From: an uncultured Rhodospirillales bacterium
Lineage (GTDB): Bacteria; Pseudomonadota; Alphaproteobacteria; Azospirillales; Azospirillaceae
Direction of reading: 5' to 3'
Assembly: GCA_903927615.1 (NCBI GenBank)
Contig: CAIYNU010000026.1
Location: 1 to 35,999 of the forward strand
Length of the DNA: 35,999 nt
The notes under the pieces were generated by a model. The model worked only from the letters and a program-made list of their open reading frames with translations. It did not search any database and was not told where the DNA came from. The translations under genes were made by a program, and so were the position numbers. Positions 5,731-35,999 of this stretch are shown piece by piece. Every line of letters begins with the position of its first letter. Position 1 is the first letter of the stretch.

Positions 5731-5875
5731 GTCGGCGTTCGTTGGGGGCCGGCTGTGACGCGGCATCCTGGTGAAAACACGCCGTTATTCTCTTTGGATA
5801 CCGACGAGCCTTGCCACCATGGGGCAGGTTGGGCCACGATGGCGGCGTTTTTTTGTCGGATCCCTTCAGGCCATC

Positions 5876-7243
5876 ATGACCATGACCAAGGTAGCGCCGG
5901 CATCGAGCGACGAGCTTGATATCGGGCGGAAGAAGATCACCCAAGCGGATTTGGATCGGATTCTGGAACTTCATGACGCCTTTCTCAAGCGGCGGAGTGG
6001 CGGGGTCCGGGCGAGTCTGAAGTTGCTTGACCTGTCTTACCTTGACCTCGCTGGCCGTGATCTTTCCGAAGCCGACCTCAGCGGCTGCAAGATGTTCGGG
6101 TGCGCCCTGAGCGGCGCCAAGTTCAGCAACGCCAATCTGTTTGCGGCGGACTTGCGCTCGGCGGTGATGGAGCGTGCCGAATTTCGGCGGGCGGATCTGC
6201 GCGGCGCCTGCCTGCGGGGCGCGCGGATGAACGACTCCATTTTCGTCGAGGCGGATCTGCGCGGCGGCGTGATGCTCAGGCCGGGCCGGGATGGCGAACT
6301 CAAGCAGATTGCAGCCGGTGACGGCATCGGTGCCGAGCTGGGGTCGGCGAGCGCCCAACGCGCGGACATGAGCCGCGCCAAGATGAGCAATGCCTTCATT
6401 CTGCAAACGGATCTGACCGACGCGGTGTTGTGCAATGTTCGCTTTATCCGTGCCGATCTCAGCAATTCCAATTTGACCGGTGCCACCCTGGAGGGCGCCG
6501 ACCTGACCGAGGCGAACCTGACCGGCGCGATGCTGCAAGGCACGGTGCTGTCAAAAGCGTGCATGATGTACACCAATCTGACCGATGCGAACCTGATCGG
6601 GGCGATTCTGGACGCGGTTGATCTGTCCATGGCCGACCTGACCAACGCCAGCGTGGTGCGGCGGCTTAGCGACCTGGACACGTCGTTGCGGGAGATCGTC
6701 AGCGCCCATATCGAGTGGGTCGGTTCGGCCGGCCATTCGGGCCGCCGGGCCGATCTCTCTAAGCAAGACCTGACCGGAACGGACCTCAGCGGATTAAAGC
6801 TTTCAGCGAGTAATCTCAGCTATTCGGTCCTCAAGGGCGTCGACCTGTCAAAGATTTGCCTGGTGATGTCGGATCTGTCGTTCGTTGACCTGCGCGACGC
6901 CAATCTGGCCAATTCCGATCTGCGGGGAATCAACCTGTACCGGGCAACACTGACGGGCGCCCAATTGGTCGGCGCGCGTTTGGGACCGGTGGAGATTTCC
7001 GGAACCTCGGTGACCAATTGGCCGTCGAACCTGGAGAATGCCCGTCTGAACCGTGCCAATCTGAATGGCGCCGACTTGCGGGGCGTGCGACTCGCCCGGA
7101 CCGACTTGAGCCATGCGGATCTGCGCGATGCCGACCTGAGGAAAGCGGTGCTGGAGGATGCCACGCTGACCAACGCCGATCTGCGCGGCGCCAGACTCGA
7201 GGGCGCCAACCTGCGGGGCGTGATGGGCTATGACGGTGACTGA
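5876..7243 (+). CDS. Two-module pentapeptide-repeat protein
   Basis: The product is 455 residues, mostly A(D/N)LxX pentapeptide repeats that build a right-handed quadrilateral beta-helix. The N-terminus (about residues 20-60) is a helical cap: DLDRILELHDAFLKRRSGG followed by RASLKLLDLSYLDLAGRDL. A second, similar cap appears mid-protein at about residues 262-302 (LREIVSAHIEW then GHSGRRADLSKQDLTG), followed by a second run of repeats. The protein therefore looks like an internal duplication of a cap-plus-solenoid unit. No signal peptide or catalytic motif is visible. ATG at 5876 is chosen for an AGG five bases upstream; GTG at 5771 would add 35 residues without family resemblance. Function unknown. 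Confidence 0.8.
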   Translation: MTMTKVAPASSDELDIGRKKITQADLDRILELHDAFLKRRSGGVRASLKLLDLSYLDLAGRDLSEADLSGCKMFGCALSGAKFSNANLFAADLRSAVMERAEFRRADLRGACLRGARMNDSIFVEADLRGGVMLRPGRDGELKQIAAGDGIGAELGSASAQRADMSRAKMSNAFILQTDLTDAVLCNVRFIRADLSNSNLTGATLEGADLTEANLTGAMLQGTVLSKACMMYTNLTDANLIGAILDAVDLSMADLTNASVVRRLSDLDTSLREIVSAHIEWVGSAGHSGRRADLSKQDLTGTDLSGLKLSASNLSYSVLKGVDLSKICLVMSDLSFVDLRDANLANSDLRGINLYRATLTGAQLVGARLGPVEISGTSVTNWPSNLENARLNRANLNGADLRGVRLARTDLSHADLRDADLRKAVLEDATLTNADLRGARLEGANLRGVMGYDGD

Positions 7244-8851: not shown

Positions 8852-8880
8852 TTGACCCGAGGGTCGCGCGGTGCAATACT
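8852..8880 (+). promoter_or_regulatory. Rubrerythrin operon promoter
   Basis: TTGACC at 8852-8857, a 17-base spacer and AATACT at 8875-8880 form a good sigma-70 promoter. The predicted start site near 8887 gives a leader of about 120 nt before the rubrerythrin ATG. The ICE-like palindrome is centred about 48 bp upstream of this start, a position compatible with either activation or repression. Confidence 0.65.
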
Positions 8881-9006: not shown

Positions 9007-9423
9007 ATGGCGTTGAAGGGCAGCAAGACCGAAGACAATCTCAAGGCGGCTTTTGCCGGTGAGAGCCAGGCCAACCGCCGGTACCTCTATTTTGCTCAGA
9101 AGGCCGACATTGAAGGCTACAATGACGTGGCTGCTGTGTTCCGCTCCACCGCAGAAGGCGAGACCGGCCACGCCCATGGCCATCTGGAGTATCTCGAAGA
9201 AACAGGCGACCCGGCCACCGGCGAGCCCATCGGCCCCACGGGCCTGAACCTCAAGGCCGCCATCGCCGGTGAGACTCACGAGTACACCGACATGTACCCC
9301 GGCATGGCCCGGACCGCGCGCGAAGAAGGCTTTGCCGAAATCGCAGACTGGTTCGAGACCCTGGCCAAGGCCGAGAAGTCACACGCCGGACGGTTCCAGA
9401 AGGCGCTCGATACCCTGGCCTGA
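9007..9423 (+). CDS. Rubrerythrin without rubredoxin domain
   Basis: The product is a 138-residue four-helix ferritin-like diiron protein. Rubrerythrins reduce hydrogen peroxide at a diiron site. Ligand motifs are visible: E19 in [16 protein letters not shown]52xxH55 in [14 protein letters not shown]89/E92 in [15 protein letters not shown], and E123xxH126 in AEKSHAGRF. The C-terminal rubredoxin domain (two CxxC pairs) of classical rubrerythrin is absent, so an external electron donor is needed. ATG 9007 is set by AAGGAGG nine bases upstream; the frame is open further upstream but reads into the leader. The Fe-S protein that follows is the obvious candidate partner (inference). Confidence 0.93.
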
Positions 9424-9587
9424 CCGGCCGGTTTTCCGCACCCGGTCGGCACGAGTCCAAAACTCCGCCGGCCGGGGTGTCGCCGGACGGACTCGACCGC
9501 CGCCCGACCCGATGACCGCCGTTGTCCCTTGTCCAACGCTCAGTCAATGCCGTAGCCAATGCCATAGCCATAGCCAATGAGGACAGC

Positions 9588-10967
9588 ATGCGTGAAGGCA
9601 GCCTGGAAGCCCCGACCCGCCATCCCGTGGAGTGGCAGAGTCCCGACTTTTATGACGAAGCCAAGCTCGATGCCGAGTTGCGGCGGGTGTTCGATATTTG
9701 CCATGGTTGCCGCCGTTGCTTTAATCTGTGTGATAGTTTTCCCCGATTGTTTAGTCTGATCGATAACACCCCTTCCGAGGAGTTGAGCGCGGTTCCGTCG
9801 GCATCCCTTAAGTCGGTGGCCGATGCCTGCACGTTATGCGACATGTGTTATATGACCAAGTGTCCTTACGTCCCGCCCCATGAGTTCAATCTGGATTTCC
9901 CGCACCTGATGTTACGCTATCGGGCGGTGGAGTTCCGCAAGGGGTTGGTGCCGCGCGCCGCGCGCGAGTTGAACCGGACCGATCGCAACGGCCGTCTGGC
10001 CGGGCTGGTGGCCCCCATCGCCAACTGGGCCACCGACCGGCACAACGAGTTGACCCGGCCGGTGATGGAGGCGGTTGCCGGCATCCACCACGATGCGGCG
10101 GTGCCGAAATTCCAGGGCCGGACCTTCATGATGCGGGCCAAGGCCGAGTCGGCTTTTGCCGATTGCCAGGCGCCGGCCTTTGGCCGCAAGGCGGTGATCT
10201 TTGCCACCTGCTTCGTCAACTACAACAATCCGGCCATCGGCATGGCGGCCCGGGCCGTCCTGGCCCGGAACGGCGTCGCCGTGACCGAGCGTTACCCGGG
10301 ATGCTGCGGCATGCCCCAGTTGGAGCAGGGCGACCTGGAGACGGTGGTGGCCCGCGCCGGCCGTGTGGCCCGCGCCCTGGAACCGCTGATCGATTCCGGT
10401 CACGATGTGGTGGCGCTGGTGCCCAGTTGCGCCCTGATGATGAAAAGCGAGTGGCCCCTGCTGGTGCCCCGGTCGTCGCCCGACTTTCCGCTGGTGCAAA
10501 AGCTGGCCGCCGCGACCTACGACATCAGCGAGTATATGGTCGATATCGCGCGCAAGGAAGGATTAACGCCTGGGCTTAAGCCCATTGAGGGTGGCGTTAC
10601 CGTACACATCGCCTGTCACGCCCGGGCCCAGAATGTTGGCCAGAAGGCCGCCGAGATGCTCCGCCGGATTCCCGGGCTGGACCTCAAGGTGATTGAGCGT
10701 TGCTCGGGTCACGGCGGTTCCTGGGGACTGGGCAAGGACAACTTCGAAACCGCCCTCAAAGTCGGCGCCCCGGTGGCCCAGCAGGCCGTCGGCGCCAATA
10801 AAGGCTGTGTCGCCTCGGAATGTCCGCTGGCTGGCGCCCATATTCTTCAGGGGATGGAGCGGATCGAGGGTGCCCGGGTGCCGGCCGAAGCCTTGCACCC
10901 GATCCAGATTATGGCGCGGGCCTACGGCCTTGACGGTTCCGCCGTCACGCCTTCGCCGCAACCCTAG
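9588..10967 (+). CDS. GlpC/HdrD-like Fe-S oxidoreductase subunit
   Basis: The product is a 459-residue protein. Its N-terminal ferredoxin-like domain has two 4Fe-4S motifs: C38xxC41xxC44xxxC48 (CHGCRRCFNLC) and C81xxC84xxC87xxxxC92 (CTLCDMCYMTKCP). Two CCG-type domains follow. The first has the canonical RYPGCCGMPQLEQGD. The second reads ERCSGHGGSWGLGKDNF with an upstream CHARAQN, a variant in which the CCG pair is altered, and ends with CVASECPLAG. This resembles GlpC and the heterodisulfide reductase D subunit, but it belongs to a subfamily found with rubrerythrin and DUF3501. ATG 9588 has GAGG five bases upstream; an in-frame start at 9522 is possible. Probably an electron carrier to the rubrerythrin (inference). 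Confidence 0.88.
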   Translation: MREGSLEAPTRHPVEWQSPDFYDEAKLDAELRRVFDICHGCRRCFNLCDSFPRLFSLIDNTPSEELSAVPSASLKSVADACTLCDMCYMTKCPYVPPHEFNLDFPHLMLRYRAVEFRKGLVPRAARELNRTDRNGRLAGLVAPIANWATDRHNELTRPVMEAVAGIHHDAAVPKFQGRTFMMRAKAESAFADCQAPAFGRKAVIFATCFVNYNNPAIGMAARAVLARNGVAVTERYPGCCGMPQLEQGDLETVVARAGRVARALEPLIDSGHDVVALVPSCALMMKSEWPLLVPRSSPDFPLVQKLAAATYDISEYMVDIARKEGLTPGLKPIEGGVTVHIACHARAQNVGQKAAEMLRRIPGLDLKVIERCSGHGGSWGLGKDNFETALKVGAPVAQQAVGANKGCVASECPLAGAHILQGMERIEGARVPAEALHPIQIMARAYGLDGSAVTPSPQP

Positions 10968-11032
10968 TGTTGTGAACGAGACGCTTCGTTCCTGACGATC
11001 GTGTCGAGGGCACAACACAACACATTGAACCA

Positions 11033-11087
11033 GCTCGTGTTCCGGCCCAACGGGGTAGGAATGGTCCGTCGGCGTCGGAACACGAGC
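11033..11087. repeat. 12-bp perfect inverted repeat between Fe-S and DUF3501 genes
   Basis: GCTCGTGTTCCG (11033-11044) pairs exactly with CGGAACACGAGC (11076-11087) across a 31-nt loop. It lies in the 163-bp gap inside the presumed operon and has no T-run, so a regulator site or mRNA-processing hairpin is as likely as a terminator. Confidence 0.6.
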
Positions 11088-11130
11088 GGCTGATCCGGTT
11101 TCGTCGGAACACTCAGCAAGGACGGGGATC

Positions 11131-11730
11131 ATGACCGCCGCATCCGCCAAACGCCGAATTACCCGTGACGATATCCTCGATATGACCGAATACGCCGGCA
11201 TTCGGGCCGCCCGGCGGCAGGCGTTGGTCGGCATCAAGGCCGCCCGGCGGTTGGCGGTCGGACCGGCGGCGACCTTTTATTTTGAAAATTATGACACCAT
11301 GTGGCTGCAAATCCACGAGATGCTCCGCATTGAGCGGGGCGGCGAGGCGCAGATCGCCGACGAACTGGCGGCCTACAACCCGCTGGTGCCCAACGGGGGG
11401 GAACTGGTGGCGACGGTGATGTTCGAAATCGATGATCCGGGACGTCGGGATCGGATTCTCCGGGCACTCGGCGGCGTCGAGCGTACCCTGATGATCCAGG
11501 TTGGTTCCGAGCAGGTCATGGGCCGGCCGGAGGCGGACCTGGAGCGCACCAACAGGCAGGGCAAGACCTCGGCCGTCCATTTTATCCACTTTCCGTTCAC
11601 GCCGGCCCAGATCGATCTGTTCAAGGCCCCCGGACAGCCGGTTGTCGCCGGAATCACGCATCCCAATTACGGTCACATGGCCATCATGCCCGAGGCCATG
11701 CGCGTCGCCCTGGCTGCCGACTTTGACTAG
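11131..11730 (+). CDS. DUF3501 family protein
   Basis: The product is a 199-residue soluble protein with no signal peptide. The N-terminus ITRDDILDMTEYAGIRAARR and the core FYFENYDTMWLQIHEMLRIER are features I associate with DUF3501. The C-terminal half includes HFIHFPFTPAQIDLFK and GITHPNYGHMAIMPEAMR. The function of the family is not established. Its genes recur beside rubrerythrin and the GlpC-like Fe-S protein, as here, so a role with them is a reasonable inference. A possible TTG start for the next gene overlaps the end of this one. Confidence 0.85.
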   Translation: MTAASAKRRITRDDILDMTEYAGIRAARRQALVGIKAARRLAVGPAATFYFENYDTMWLQIHEMLRIERGGEAQIADELAAYNPLVPNGGELVATVMFEIDDPGRRDRILRALGGVERTLMIQVGSEQVMGRPEADLERTNRQGKTSAVHFIHFPFTPAQIDLFKAPGQPVVAGITHPNYGHMAIMPEAMRVALAADFD

Positions 11731-12580
11731 CCGCGCCGGTTCGGCCCCGCTCTGCCGCTTTGTTGGTTGGTTGCCGGCCGTGTTGTTGGTGGCCGTGCTG
11801 TTGGTGGTGACGCTGGCGGCCGGCGAGGCGCTGGCCGGGACGCCCCAGCAGTTGCCCTCTGGCGGGACCGCCTTGGTCAAGGCGGTGATGTCGGGCGACA
11901 CGGTGATCCTGGGGGATGGCCGGGTGCTGCGGCTTTCCGGCATTCAAGCCCCCCGCATCGTCCAGAGCCGCGCCCGGCCCCACGCCTGGCCGCTGGCCTC
12001 GGACGCCAAGGCGGCGCTGGAACGGCTGGTGCTGGGGCGGACCGTCACGCTCTATGTCGCGGGCGCCCGTCAGGACCGTCACGACCATCTGCTGGGCCAA
12101 CTGGTCCGTGACGACGGCCTGTGGCTTCAGGGCGAAATGCTGAGCTTGGGTTGGGCCAGAGTCACCGCCGCGCCGGATTTGCGGGAATTGGGTGTAGAAA
12201 TGTACGCGCTGGAGCAGGCCGCCCGGGACGCCCGCCGCGGCATCTGGGATAACCGGTTCTATGCCATCCGGGAGTCCGGCAGCCTGGGGGGCCACGATCT
12301 GGACAGTTTTCAGGTGGTGGAAGGCCGGGTGGCGAGTGTAACCCTCGGTAAGGGGCAGCTCTACCTGAACTTCGGCCCGAACTGGCACACCGACTTCTCG
12401 GTCCGGGTGCCCCGCCGGAGCCTGAAGCCGTTCCGGCAGTTGCATGGCGATCCCCGCCAGTTCCAGGGTCAACGGGTCCGGGTGCGCGGATGGGTGTTCC
12501 GCCACGGCGGGCCGGAAATCGAGGTGACCATTCCAGAACAGCTTGAGCTGGTGGAGGCGGCGCCAGGGCCTTCACCTTGA
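11723..12580 (+). CDS. Secreted thermonuclease-like (SNase-fold) protein
   Basis: The product, about 285 residues, begins with a hydrophobic signal segment (WLPAVLLVAVLLVVTLAAGEALA). It then has a staphylococcal-nuclease-like domain: VKAVMSGDTVILGDGRVLRL, SGIQAP, and the later DRHDHLLGQLVRDDGLWLQ and MLSLGWARV. The Asp of SGDTV sits at the family's calcium-ligand position. The other catalytic Arg/Glu residues are not clearly conserved, so nuclease activity is uncertain. A C-terminal OB-like region ([10 protein letters not shown] ... GQRVRVRGWVF) follows, as in related alphaproteobacterial proteins. The start is the weakest point: TTG 11723 precedes the whole signal segment and overlaps the DUF3501 stop, but no strong ribosome site is seen. 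Confidence 0.78.
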   Translation: MTSRAGSAPLCRFVGWLPAVLLVAVLLVVTLAAGEALAGTPQQLPSGGTALVKAVMSGDTVILGDGRVLRLSGIQAPRIVQSRARPHAWPLASDAKAALERLVLGRTVTLYVAGARQDRHDHLLGQLVRDDGLWLQGEMLSLGWARVTAAPDLRELGVEMYALEQAARDARRGIWDNRFYAIRESGSLGGHDLDSFQVVEGRVASVTLGKGQLYLNFGPNWHTDFSVRVPRRSLKPFRQLHGDPRQFQGQRVRVRGWVFRHGGPEIEVTIPEQLELVEAAPGPSP

Positions 12581-13823: not shown

Positions 13824-13981
13824 CCGGTCTCCGTTCGTGCATCCTGCCATCCGCGCCGGCCGGCGAAGGCCAGGCACCCCCGGGGGCATTAACCCCACAA
13901 AGCCTGTGCTTGATCCTTGCGGTGATTTTGCCCACTTTCGGTGGCAACCGCCAGTGTCGGCGGTCCCTTGGAGAGCTTGCA

Positions 13982-14536
13982 ATGTTTATCCAGACCGAAG
14001 AGACCCCGAATCCCGCGACCCTGAAATTCATCCCCGGCCGTCCCGTAACCGGCGGGGCTCCGGTTGATTTCCCGACCGTCGAGAGTTCCGTAGGCTCGCC
14101 ACTTGCGCGTGCCTTGTTTGCCGTGGATGGCGTCTCTGGCGTGTTCCTGGGCAGTGACTTCATCACCATCACCAATAATGGCGCCAAAGACTGGGCGGTG
14201 CTCAAGCCGGCCTTGCTCGGCACGATGATGGAGCACTTTGTCCACAATCGCCCGATTCTGGAACCCGCGGCGGCGGCCACGACCGGCGCCGGAACCGAAG
14301 AAGACAGCGAGATCGTGCTCCAGATCAAGGAGTTGCTCGATCAACGGGTTCGCCCGGTGGTGGCCAATGATGGCGGCGACATCACGTTCCACGGCTTCAG
14401 CAACGGCGTGGTTTATCTCCACATGAAAGGCTCATGCGCCGGATGCCCCAGTTCGACCGCCACCCTGAAATCCGGCATCGAAAACCTGCTGCGCCACTTC
14501 ATTCCCGAAGTCACCGAAGTCCGGGCGGTGCGGTAG
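13982..14536 (+). CDS. NifU-like Fe-S scaffold/carrier protein (NFU1-type)
   Basis: The product is 184 residues with two domains. The N-terminal Nfu_N domain starts MFIQTEETPNPATLKFIPGR and runs to about residue 90. The C-terminal NifU domain has DGGDITFHGF and the cluster-binding C152xxC155 (GSCAGCPSS). Proteins of this layout carry 4Fe-4S clusters to target enzymes such as lipoate synthase and respiratory complexes. It stands alone, diverging from the cyclase gene. The conserved N-terminal sequence fixes the start at 13982. Confidence 0.94.
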   Translation: MFIQTEETPNPATLKFIPGRPVTGGAPVDFPTVESSVGSPLARALFAVDGVSGVFLGSDFITITNNGAKDWAVLKPALLGTMMEHFVHNRPILEPAAAATTGAGTEEDSEIVLQIKELLDQRVRPVVANDGGDITFHGFSNGVVYLHMKGSCAGCPSSTATLKSGIENLLRHFIPEVTEVRAVR

Positions 14537-32310: not shown

Positions 32311-32400
32311 ATGAGTCTCGACTTCATTCTGGGCAGCGTCGTCAGCGTTATGCTGTTCGGCTACCTAATCTATGCTTTGGTTCGGCCGGAAAAGTTCTAA
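32311..32400 (+). CDS. kdpF: Potassium-transporting ATPase subunit F
   Basis: The product is 29 residues, [20 protein letters not shown] followed by YALVRPEKF. It is a single helix ending in the KdpF hallmark YLxYALxRPExF. KdpF stabilises the KdpABC complex. An AGGA site lies 6 bases before ATG 32311, and kdpA starts 31 bp later. Confidence 0.92.
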
Positions 32401-32431
32401 TCCCGCCGCCTCTTTGCTGGGAGTAACCCCC

Positions 32432-34159
32432 TTGACCTTCAATGGCTGGCTTCAGATTGCGCTGTTTTGCGCGATTGTGCTGTTGCTCACCCGGCCGCTG
32501 GGCGGCTATTTGACCCGCCTGTTCGCCGGCGAGCGCACCCTGCTTTCGCCGGTGCTGCGGCCCCTGGAAGTCGGGCTGTATCGCCTGAGCGGCATCGACG
32601 AACGGACCGAACAGCATTGGCTGACCTACACCCTGGCCATGCTCGCCTTCAATCTGGTCTGTTTCCTGCTGCTTTATGCCTTTCTGCGCCTTCAGGGTTG
32701 GTTGCCGCTCAATCCCCAGGGAATGACGGCGTTGACCCCGGACCTGGCGCTGAATACGGCGGTCAGCTTTGTCACCAACACCAACTGGCAGAATTACGGC
32801 GGCGAGACCACGCTCTCCTATCTGGTGCAGATGGCGGGTCTCACCGTTCATAACTTCGTGTCGGCGGCCACCGGCATTGCGTTGGCGTTGGCGCTGGTGC
32901 GGGGCTTTGTCCGCCGGAACGCCAAAACGGTTGGCAATTTCTGGGTGGATCTGGTCCGCGGCACCCTTTATCTGCTGCTGCCGCTGGCCATCCTCGGTGC
33001 GCTGTTCTTCGTCTGGCAGGGCGTGCCCCAGAACCTCGGCACCTATACCGAGGCGACCACGGTGGAAGGGGCCAAGCAGGTGATCGCCCAGGGGCCGGTG
33101 GCCTCCCAGGAGGTGATCAAGTTGCTGGGGACCAACGGCGGCGGCTTCTTCAACGCCAATTCGGCTCATCCCTTCGAAAATCCGACCGGGCTCAGCAATC
33201 TGGTGACGCTGGTCCTGATCTTCCTGATCGGCGCCGGGCTGACCAACGTCTTCGGCCGGATGGTCGGCGACGAGCGCCAGGGTTGGGCGATCTTTGCCAC
33301 CATGGGCCTGTTGTTCCTGGCCGGCATCGCAATCTGCTATTGGGCCGAAGCCGCGGGCAACCCGGCCTTTGTGCCGCTGGGGGTCGATCAGATCGCTTCG
33401 GCCGCCCAGTCGGGCGGCAATATGGAGGGCAAGGAGGTCCGGTTCGGCATCGCCAACTCGGCGTTGTTCACCACCGTCACCACCGATACCTCGTGCGGCG
33501 CCGTCAACACCATGCACGACAGCCTGATGCCGCTGGGCGGGATGGTTCCGCTCACCAACATCCTGTTGGGCGAAACCATTTTCGGCGGTGTCGGCTCCGG
33601 GCTTTACGGCATGCTGCTCTATGTCATCATCGCCATGTTCGTGGCCGGGCTGATGGTCGGCCGGACCCCCGAATATGTCGGCAAGAAGCTGGAGGCCAAG
33701 GACGTCAAGATGACCATGCTGGCGCTGTTGTGCGTGCCGTTGGTCAATCTGGGCTTTACGTCCATCGCGGCGGCGATACCGATGGGCGTTGCCGCAGTCT
33801 CGAACAATGGTCCCCACGGCTTCTCCGAGATTTTCTACGCCTTCGTGTCCCAGGCCGGCAACAACGGCAGCGCCTTTGCCGGGCTTAACGGCAACACGCC
33901 CTTCTACAACCTGACCGGGGCGCTGACCATGCTGGTCGGGCGCTTTGCCCTGATCGTGCCGATGATGGCGGTGGCCGGGTCGCTGGCTGCCAAGAAGCGG
34001 CTGCCGCCGTCCCTTGGTACCTTCCCGACCCATGGGCCGCTGTTCGTGCTGCTGCTGACCGGCACCATTCTGATCATGGTCGGTCTCACCTACTTCCCGG
34101 CGCTGGCGCTGGGACCGGTGGCCGAGCACCTGCTGATGCAGGGTGGCGCGCTGTACTGA
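32432..34159 (+). CDS. kdpA: Potassium-transporting ATPase subunit A
   Basis: KdpA is the channel-like subunit that selects and carries K+. The 575-residue product has about ten membrane helices and the four selectivity-filter loops of the family, recognisable at [58 protein letters not shown] and the late [21 protein letters not shown] 32432 ([12 protein letters not shown]) has GGGAG eight bases upstream and fits the family start; an in-frame ATG at 32372 would overlap kdpF and add unrelated residues. Confidence 0.96.
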
Positions 34160-34193
34160 GCTTGGGACCCCTTCTATCCTTTTGGGTGAACCG

Positions 34194-35999
34194 ATGAAAT
34201 CCGATCTTCCCACCTCGATGTTCGCGCCGGGCATTCTCGGTCCGGCGATTCCCGAGGCCTTTCGCAAGCTGGATCCCCGCGCCCTGATCCGTAACCCCGT
34301 GATGTTCGCGGTGGCGGTGGTGGCGACCCTGGTGACGGTGCTGTTTGTCCGTGACTTGAGCACCGGGGCGCCGCAACTGGGCTTTACCGGCCAGATTGCG
34401 CTGTGGCTGTGGTTTACCGTGCTGTTTGCGACCTTTGCCGAAGCGGTGGCCGAAGGCCGCGGCAAAGCCCAGGCGGCCTTTCTGCGGCAGGCGCGCACCG
34501 AGACCACGGCCCGGCGTCTGATCGGCCCCGGCAACCGTTTCGAGCCGGTCAGCGCCCTTGATCTCAAGGTCGGTGATCTGGTGCTGGTGGAGGCGGGCGA
34601 GGTGATCCCCGGCGACGGCGAAGTGATCGAGGGCATTGCCTCGGTCAACGAAAGTGCCATCACCGGGGAATCGGCGCCGGTGATCCGGGAGAGCGGCGGT
34701 GACCGCTCGGCCGTGACCGGCGGGACGCTGGTGTTGTCCGACTGGATCAAGGTCCGGATCACCGCCGGCCGGGGCTCGACCTTTCTCGACCGCATGATCG
34801 CGCTGATCGAAGGGGCCGAACGCCAGAAAACCCCCAACGAAATCGCCCTCAATATCCTGCTAGCCGGAATGTCCCTGATCTTCATTCTGGCCACCGTCAC
34901 CATTCCGGGTTTTGCCCGCTATGCCGGTGGTGCCGTCTCTGTAACGGTGCTGGTGGCGCTGTTCGTGACCCTGATCCCGACCACCATCGGGGCGTTGCTG
35001 TCGGCCATCGGCATTGCCGGCATGGACCGGCTGGTCCGGTTCAACGTGCTGGCCATGTCGGGGCGGGCGGTGGAGGCGGCTGGGGATGTCGATACCCTGC
35101 TGCTCGACAAGACCGGGACGATCACGCTCGGCAACCGGGTGGCCACCGAACTGATCCCGGTGGACGGTGTCGCCGAGGCGGATCTGGCCGAGGCCGCTTA
35201 CCTGGCCTCCCTGGCCGACGAGACTCCGGAAGGCCGCTCGATCGTGGTGCTGGGGCGGGAAAAGTACGGGATGCGGGAAATTCATCCGGCGTTCCAGGCC
35301 GCCCATGCCGTGCCCTTCACCGCCCAGACCCGGATGAGCGGGGTTGATCTGCCCGAAGGTCCGATCCGGAAAGGCGCGGTGGACAGCATCGTGGCCTTTG
35401 CGGCCCACCAGGCCGGCGTCGGCGCGCCGGTGCGGTCACGGGACCTGGATCTGGCGGTCGAACGGATCGCCGCCAGCGGCGGGACGCCGCTGGCGGTGGC
35501 GGCGGGCGGGCGGGTTTTGGGCGTGATCCATCTGAAGGACATCGTCAAGGGCGGCATCCGCGAACGCTTTGCCGAATTGCGCCAGATGGGCATTCGGACC
35601 GTGATGATCACCGGTGACAATCCCCTGACCGCCGCGGCCATCGCGGCCGAGGCCGGTGTCGATGACTTCCTGGCCCAGGCCACGCCCGAGGACAAGCTGA
35701 AGCTGATCCGGCAGGAACAGGCCGGCGGCAAACTGGTGGCCATGTGCGGTGACGGCACCAACGACGCCCCGGCTCTGGCCCAGGCCGATGTCGGCGTCGC
35801 CATGAACACCGGCACGGTGGCGGCCCGCGAGGCCGGCAACATGGTCGACCTCGACAGCGACCCGACCAAGCTCATCGAGATCGTCGGCATCGGCAAGCAG
35901 CTGCTGATGACCCGCGGTGCGCTGACGACCTTCTCCATCGCCAACGACGTCGCGAAGTACTTCGCGATCATTCCGGCGATGTTCCTCGGGCTCTATCCG
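34194..35999 (+). CDS. kdpB: Potassium-transporting ATPase subunit B (truncated by the window)
   Basis: KdpB is the P-type ATPase subunit that energises K+ uptake. The first 602 codons are present, and the frame is still open at the right edge. It has [12 protein letters not shown] (TGES dephosphorylation motif), the phosphorylation site D305 in [27 protein letters not shown] and [20 protein letters not shown]. The last residues, [20 protein letters not shown], belong to a C-terminal membrane helix. kdpC is expected next. The start ATG 34194 follows kdpA by 34 bp. Confidence 0.96.

Follow-up and report, generated by a model that had tools for sequence, protein, structure and literature searches.

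Rubrerythrins of the aerobic type were defined by Cardenas et al. (2016, PMC5114695), who named the accompanying Fe-S oxidoreductase RFO, recorded the joint occurrence of rubrerythrin (RBR), RFO, and a DUF3501 protein in 185 genomes and of RBR and DUF3501 alone in 25, and proposed that RFO compensates for the loss of rubredoxin. The system is reported for Andalucia mitochondria, and an argument has been made that early mitochondria possessed it (PMC7050145). An operon of these genes was described from a metagenome, and OxyR is close by in Sideroxydans (PMC7852563); the system is also mentioned for Acidihalobacter (PMC7760498) and for hyperthermophiles (PMC7465337), and it is reported as absent in euglenozoans (PMC12699882). 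After exposure of Sulfolobus solfataricus to H2O2, the genes adjoining rbr (SSO2642) rose 5.2-fold (the glpC-like SSO2643), 6.7-fold (SSO2644), and 4.3-fold (SSO2645) (PMC2739297), and we infer that SSO2644 or SSO2645 encodes the DUF3501 protein. Ferriperoxin of Hydrogenobacter thermophilus, a single-domain rubrerythrin like RBR, is an FNR- and NADPH-dependent peroxidase that was assayed without RFO, and its mutant showed no aerobic growth (PMC3317640). Here we analyze the rbr-rfo-duf3501 trio at positions 9007-11730 of the window, the whole stretch of 35,999 nucleotides (contig CAIYNU010000026.1) from an uncultured Rhodospirillales bacterium. The locus is a complete, ordinary member of this published aerobic-type rubrerythrin system, and the trio itself is not new; the analysis contributes a remodelled set of ligands, shared across the family, in the second CCG domain of RFO and the layout of an Irr-box-like site and promoter.

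We favor, as moderately probable, an explanation in which RBR of an aerobic-type rubrerythrin system is fed by RFO, DUF3501 is a non-redox partner, and the promoter is controlled by Irr. As a diiron peroxidase with a single domain, RBR would act on H2O2 and perhaps also on organic peroxides, and RFO would re-reduce it, instead of rubredoxin, through a chain of Fe-S clusters (two of the ferredoxin type and one or two in the CCG domains). The degenerate second CCG site (CCG2) would make RFO an electron wire of the EtfD/GlpC sort and not a disulfide reductase. DUF3501 would probably serve as an adaptor or stability factor for RBR, because it can persist beside RBR in the absence of RFO. The cluster would be co-transcribed from the promoter before rbr under the control of Irr, tying an iron-rich system to heme/iron status. 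An electron relay is the likeliest mechanism: one that feeds the diiron site in place of rubredoxin, as a reading of the letters without database searches (the sequence-only reading) had proposed, is still the best reading and is also the published one (PMC5114695). We counted in favor of the overall explanation both the peroxidase activity and aerobic-growth defect seen for ferriperoxin (PMC3317640) and the H2O2-dependent rise of SSO2643-SSO2645 (PMC2739297).

Genes for a rubrerythrin, an Fe-S protein, and a DUF3501 protein had been called by the sequence-only reading, and all three were confirmed as intact on the + strand (Table 1). The RFO reading frame opens at TTG 9522; its relatives begin near 'MREGSLEAPxRHP', and the start is therefore better placed at ATG 9588. 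RBR scored 103.9 bits against the Pfam Rubrerythrin model (cut-off 22.8) and carries the diiron-type motifs E52xxH55 and E123xxH126, of which E52 and E123 appear, on our own reading of the aligned ranges, to correspond to E53 and E126 of sulerythrin. There is no Cys among its 138 residues and therefore no rubredoxin domain, as had been predicted, and the protein fell below the cut-off of the NCBIfam two-domain rubrerythrin model (134.7 of 200 bits). The closest solved structures were 9onm, 4di0, and 8fuh (140-169 residues, all named rubrerythrin) together with sulerythrin, likewise a single-domain protein, which matched RBR across residues 3-136 (E 6.4e-52). A second rubrerythrin-like gene was seen in genome G000 (contig C61:16030-16389, locus L159); its product shares 48% identity with RBR over residues 7-135 and did not reach the cut-off of the NCBIfam rubrerythrin model (76.1 of 200 bits).

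The three families were searched for in the same 289 genomes of the class (Alphaproteobacteria), with E ≤1e-60 required for RFO and E ≤1e-35 for RBR. DUF3501 was found in 138 genomes, RFO in 133, and RBR in 144; all three were present in 131 of the 289 and none in 140, and no genome had RFO without DUF3501. DUF3501 without RBR was found in five (G007, G027, G081, G127, and G181). The Fisher test for RFO versus DUF3501 gave p 2e-77, a value that ignores shared ancestry and is descriptive only. At the phylum level, DUF3501 was present in 25/398 genomes, and in 1/14 control genomes, that of Sulfolobus acidocaldarius; the system is therefore patchy. In 31/31 loci (the window and the 30 best-scoring of 138), RFO immediately preceded DUF3501 on the same strand. 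We also compared 80 named loci, the best of at least 594 matches, among which close relatives are over-represented; their titles are alphaproteobacterial or give only Proteobacteria/Pseudomonadota, apart from one metagenome-assembled genome of the Ectothiorhodospiraceae. The order irr-rbr-rfo-duf3501 occurred in 61 of these (in L109 with irr ∼2.5 kb away), rbr-rfo-duf3501 without irr in 13, and rfo-duf3501 at a contig start in four, with one locus of the form irr-rbr-duf3501 without RFO (L074) and one with DUF3501 alone at a contig start (L084). The trio was together in 19 of 20 further regions selected from the class-level and phylum-level DUF3501 searches; the remaining one, L155, lacks rbr, and its genome (G132) carries RBR on another contig.

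The co-occurrence of the families, which the sequence-only reading had put forward, was thus borne out, and the survey of DUF3501 neighborhoods that it had suggested, with random association as the refuting outcome, revealed an association that is not random. That the three genes are neighbors by chance is an idea with next to no probability; it is contradicted by the co-occurrence and the conserved gene order, we found no point in its favor, and we rejected it. Some genomes keep all three families without linking all of them: DUF3501 lies ∼52 kb from RFO in G141, DUF3501 or RFO is on a separate contig in G152, G185, and G279, and RBR is on a separate contig in G132 and G234. Such unlinked retention speaks for a joint function beyond operon order, although draft contigs weaken the point for some of these genomes. 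Two loci of the window's class, L138 (G376) and L143 (G459), have RFO scores of 384 and 391 bits, compared with 501-624 for the other RFOs of the class in the selected regions and 353 for L155; their RFO and DUF3501 score like those of other phylum-level genomes, which suggests horizontal transfer. Contig C1:96036-97561 of genome G027 holds fragments of DUF3501 and, of RFO, the second half alone; RBR was not found in that genome, and the entire cluster seems to be in decay.

We aligned 76 RFO rows, all from Pseudomonadota. Fifteen Cys are invariant in all rows, eight of the ferredoxin type and seven in the CCG domains (four in CCG1 and three in CCG2), as are four His (H98, H344, H375, and H418). 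Pfam recognized a single CCG stretch (40.8 bits), its Fer4_17 match stayed below threshold (21.3 bits, cut-off 22.2), and it did not detect a second CCG domain, which is assigned because of the alignment with Escherichia coli GlpC and the fold match. The earlier claim of two 4Fe-4S motifs and two CCG domains stands for the ferredoxin-type Cys and CCG1, with CCG2 depending on that alignment and fold. The CSGHGG motif of CCG2 had been read correctly and does differ from GlpC; that it is special to this copy was not supported. C372 and H375 of the motif are present in 76/76 rows, so CSGHGG is a family rule and not an oddity, and a mutation of the window copy was ruled out. At position 373 Ser occurs in 74 rows (Ala in two), at position 415 Ala in 73 (Gly in three), and Cys at neither position in any row.

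E. coli GlpC, with 25% identity to RFO, likewise has two CCG domains and the same four Cys in CCG1. Its CCG2 reads CCGI...CETC, compared with CSGH...CPLA in RFO, such that two Cys are lost, at positions 373 and 415 of RFO, and one invariant His is gained. RFO missed both GlpC equivalog cut-offs (179.6 of 278 and 111.7 of 279.9 bits), and GlpC proper (anaerobic glycerol-3-phosphate dehydrogenase subunit C) was rejected on score. The predicted RFO model (pLDDT 93.0) matched LutA (Z 24.6, 2.2 Å over 233 residues), EtfD of Mycobacterium smegmatis (9ojn; Z 22.1, 4.4 Å over 378 residues), and HdrB (5odc; Z 19.9, 3.0 Å over 244 residues). The model also resembles 3kwl, an unannotated protein of Helicobacter pylori (Z 17.1).

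The HdrB-like fold, together with a sequence match to HdrB at E 6.7e-5 to 0.0055, brings in a different function, in which RFO would be an HdrB/HdrD-like disulfide or persulfide reductase and RBR and DUF3501 would belong to the same thiol-repair pathway. We regard this as very improbable, as A415 and S373 align with the bridging Cys and with the second Cys of the CC pair of HdrB, the very positions from which Cys is absent in all 76 rows. C281 of CCG1 aligned with the second Cys of the HdrB CXXC, with a gap nearby that makes this placing uncertain. The catalytic heterodisulfide reductases HdrB/HdrD have five Cys in each CCG domain, whereas RFO keeps four in CCG1 and three in CCG2, and by this count RFO falls outside that class. 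The remodelled CCG2, combined with the LutA/EtfD/HdrB fold, favors an electron wire over a disulfide reductase, and RFO is probably such a wire, the reductase role being less likely. A plasmid search returned four Burkholderia replicons with RFO at ∼43% identity.

The assignment of the third gene to DUF3501 was borne out by a score of 197.2 bits against Pfam PF12007 (cut-off 25) and by the fold of the solved relative 3fjv, which was found with E 2.7e-25 from the single protein and 8e-70 from the family profile. The predicted model (pLDDT 94.4) superimposed on 3fjv with Z 25.2 and 1.4 Å over 187 residues; 3fjv, a DUF3501 structure with 35% identity to the window protein, gives no function. A fold search beyond 3fjv returned nothing above Z 7.0, with many Ig-like sandwiches among the matches; no function follows from it, and the fold may be other than Ig-like. 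Fourteen positions are invariant in 76 DUF3501 rows, including the acidic residues E52, E63, and E117; none is Cys or His, and H177 is kept in at least 90%. A metal or Fe-S relay through this protein is thus unlikely, and the earlier proposal of a catalytic or redox partner is weakened by this pattern and by the uninformative fold; on the residues conserved, DUF3501 may have an organic cofactor or a carboxylate site. RBR and DUF3501 adjoin with no RFO between them in L074 and G112. No full RFO was found in either genome (the 81% complete G112 gave no match, and the genome of L074 a best match of 79 bits), and this pairing points to RBR as the partner of DUF3501.

Upstream of rbr lies irr, whose product passed two NCBIfam models (IrrA NF045678, 197 bits with a cut-off of 150; Irr NF045677, 174.8 bits with a cut-off of 170). 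This gene, the box-like site, and the promoter-like site had escaped the sequence-only reading. The palindrome before rbr is the best Irr-box-like site in the window, sites being scored out of 14 against a pre-set consensus that was not derived blind. From 81 loci (the 80 and the window), seven were dropped for want of a usable stretch upstream of rbr. Among the remaining 74, a box of at least 11/14 was found within 250 bp of rbr in 55, compared with none upstream of RFO (0/73), upstream of DUF3501 (0/74), or downstream of DUF3501 (0/72; together 0/219) and with 1.1% of 3700 dinucleotide shuffles. At 12/14 or better, the box was present upstream of rbr in 41/74 loci, in none of the four controls (the region upstream of irr being the fourth), and in 0.1% of the shuffles. 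For loci without an adjoining irr, the box was kept in L052, L056, L098, and L105 and absent in L047, L048, L081, and L094. The center of the window box lies ∼48 bp before the predicted start and next to a near-consensus -35 hexamer; the promoter-like pair scores 9/12, and two such pairs were found in this region, compared with 0.8 expected in shuffles. In 39 of the 55 box loci, the -35 hexamer of the best promoter-like pair begins 20 or 21 bases downstream, counted from the start of the box; this count was made without a shuffle control. Irr represses or activates according to box position (PMC7762939), and in Rhodobacter sphaeroides it binds the ccpA and mbfA promoters (PMC3413700). We suggest that Irr binds the site before rbr, with a sign that may be either. 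The accessible portions of PMC3413700, PMC2864753, and PMC7762939 contain no report of Irr control of the trio, and we do not claim that such control is unpublished.

Several observations weigh against the explanation that we favor. DUF3501 occurs without RFO in 5/289 genomes (G007, G112, G127, G181, and G220), and RBR occurs without DUF3501 in 11/289. Several of the genomes that lack one of the three families are fragmentary drafts in which the match is broken up or lies at the end of a contig (G127, G181, G220, G081, and G027). The gaps within the trio are ∼160 bp, so internal promoters are possible. No box of at least 11/14 stands upstream of rbr in 19/74 loci, and such a box does stand upstream of irr in 10/62. 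In Pelagibacter, rbr rose 1.57-fold under iron limitation (PMC2864753), a poor fit to simple repression at low iron. Finally, because ferriperoxin is active in vitro on FNR and NADPH alone (PMC3317640), RFO may be dispensable.

This last point, along with the RBR-DUF3501 pairs of L074 and G112, agrees with the proposal that RFO and DUF3501 mature or repair RBR, by iron loading or by re-reduction of an over-oxidised site, while another reductase gives the catalytic electrons. We judge this proposal unlikely, as the eight ferredoxin-type and seven CCG Cys, invariant in 76/76 rows, are better explained by a permanent path for electrons than by repair on occasion. The Pelagibacter response, in which the protein was named a putative ferroxidase (PMC2864753), and the adjoining irr with its box-like site would suit iron handling in place of peroxide removal, with RBR as a ferroxidase or iron buffer and RFO reducing iron for release, hence the Irr control. 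That alternative appears less likely still: the single-domain relative ferriperoxin has peroxidase activity and an aerobic-growth defect (PMC3317640), H2O2 induces the Sulfolobus cluster (PMC2739297), and genes of peroxide defence, ccpA among them, are likewise under Irr control (PMC3413700).

Table 1. Features of the trio and the region in front of it, with positions in the window.
Feature	Position	Strand	Basis
irr, Fur-family iron response regulator, 154 aa	8243..8707	+	NCBIfam IrrA NF045678 and Irr NF045677; upstream position recurs in loci
Irr-box (ICE)-like palindrome TTTGGAATAACTCCAAA	8831..8847		11/14 versus pre-set consensus; kept upstream of rbr
Sigma-70-like promoter TTGACC-17-AATACT	8852..8880	+	Score 9/12; -35 spacing from box recurs
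RBR, single-domain rubrerythrin without rubredoxin domain, 138 aa	9007..9423	+	Pfam PF02915; single-domain relatives in PDB
RFO, Fe-S oxidoreductase, 459 aa; alternative TTG start 9522	9588..10967	+	Pfam, alignment, model, fold matches
RFO first ferredoxin-type motif, C38/C41/C44/C48	9699..9731	+	76/76 rows
RFO second ferredoxin-type motif, C81/C84/C87/C92, CX2CX2CX4CP	9828..9863	+	76/76 rows
RFO CCG1 ligand region, C208/C239/C240/C281	10209..10430	+	76/76 rows; same Cys in E. coli GlpC
RFO CCG2 ligand region, C343/C372/C412 with invariant H344 and H375; CSGHGG at 10701-10718	10614..10823	+	76/76 rows
DUF3501 protein, 199 aa	11131..11730	+	Pfam PF12007, 197.2 bits; 3fjv match; model

Among the other genes of the window, one encodes an AhpC/TSA-family (peroxiredoxin-like) domain protein (1166-2020, +) ∼7 kb upstream of the trio, and another a 490-aa protein composed mostly of pentapeptide repeats (5771-7243, +; Pfam 241.4 bits). 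Directly downstream of DUF3501 is an open reading frame with a staphylococcal-nuclease-like domain (11501-12580, +), and ∼2.2 kb downstream of the trio is a gene for an Nfu-type Fe-S scaffold protein with Nfu_N and NifU domains (13979-14536, +). Two long open reading frames without any Pfam match (354-1136, +, 260 aa; 32348-34903, -, 851 aa) are putative genes only. Across the loci compared, no recurring electron-donor gene was recognized in the top 40 recurrent neighbor clusters, many of which are antisense open reading frames and which were inspected without a family search. The recurrent neighbors are presumably FabA/FabB, an SH3-type protein, a hydroxyacid dehydrogenase, a ThiF/MoeB protein, and cysteine synthase.

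The system is common in Alphaproteobacteria (DUF3501 in 138/289 genomes). Its ligand pattern singles out S373, H375, A415, and the cofactor to seek, and the box and promoter layout singles out a heme/iron signal; together they make the electron donor and the roles of RFO and DUF3501 open to testing. EtfD is among the closest known systems and, like RFO, has two 4Fe-4S and two CCG domains with altered ligands (PMC13083937). The EtfD CCG domains hold a linear [3Fe-4S] cluster, where Thr replaces one Hdr Cys, and a noncubane [4Fe-4S] cluster completed by His, and its authors read the full cluster ligation as a possible adaptation to air (PMC13083937). The altered CCG domain is the second in RFO, whereas the linear cluster of EtfD is in the first (PMC13083937). 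The EtfD class also has a membrane part with heme; in the 459-residue RFO no clear membrane part was evident by hydropathy, the only measure applied (no dedicated predictor was run), with a 19-residue maximum of 1.29 in the window protein and 18/76 rows reaching 1.6. We put forward, as a speculative and rather doubtful extension, that RFO is a cousin of EtfD without the membrane anchor, that its CCG2 carries a novel kind of cluster ligated by three Cys and His375 (a linear [3Fe-4S] and a [2Fe-2S] being possibilities), and that RFO hands electrons on to rubrerythrin from ETF or the quinol pool. If so, the trio would be a respiratory-chain-linked peroxidase under Irr heme control, of a kind that early mitochondria also carried. 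In comparison with the cluster of Cardenas et al. (2016, PMC5114695), the locus has the same three adjoining families and leads to the same relay proposal; beyond the accessible portion of that description, in which neither was seen, the window copy adds an irr gene and an Irr-box-like site in front.

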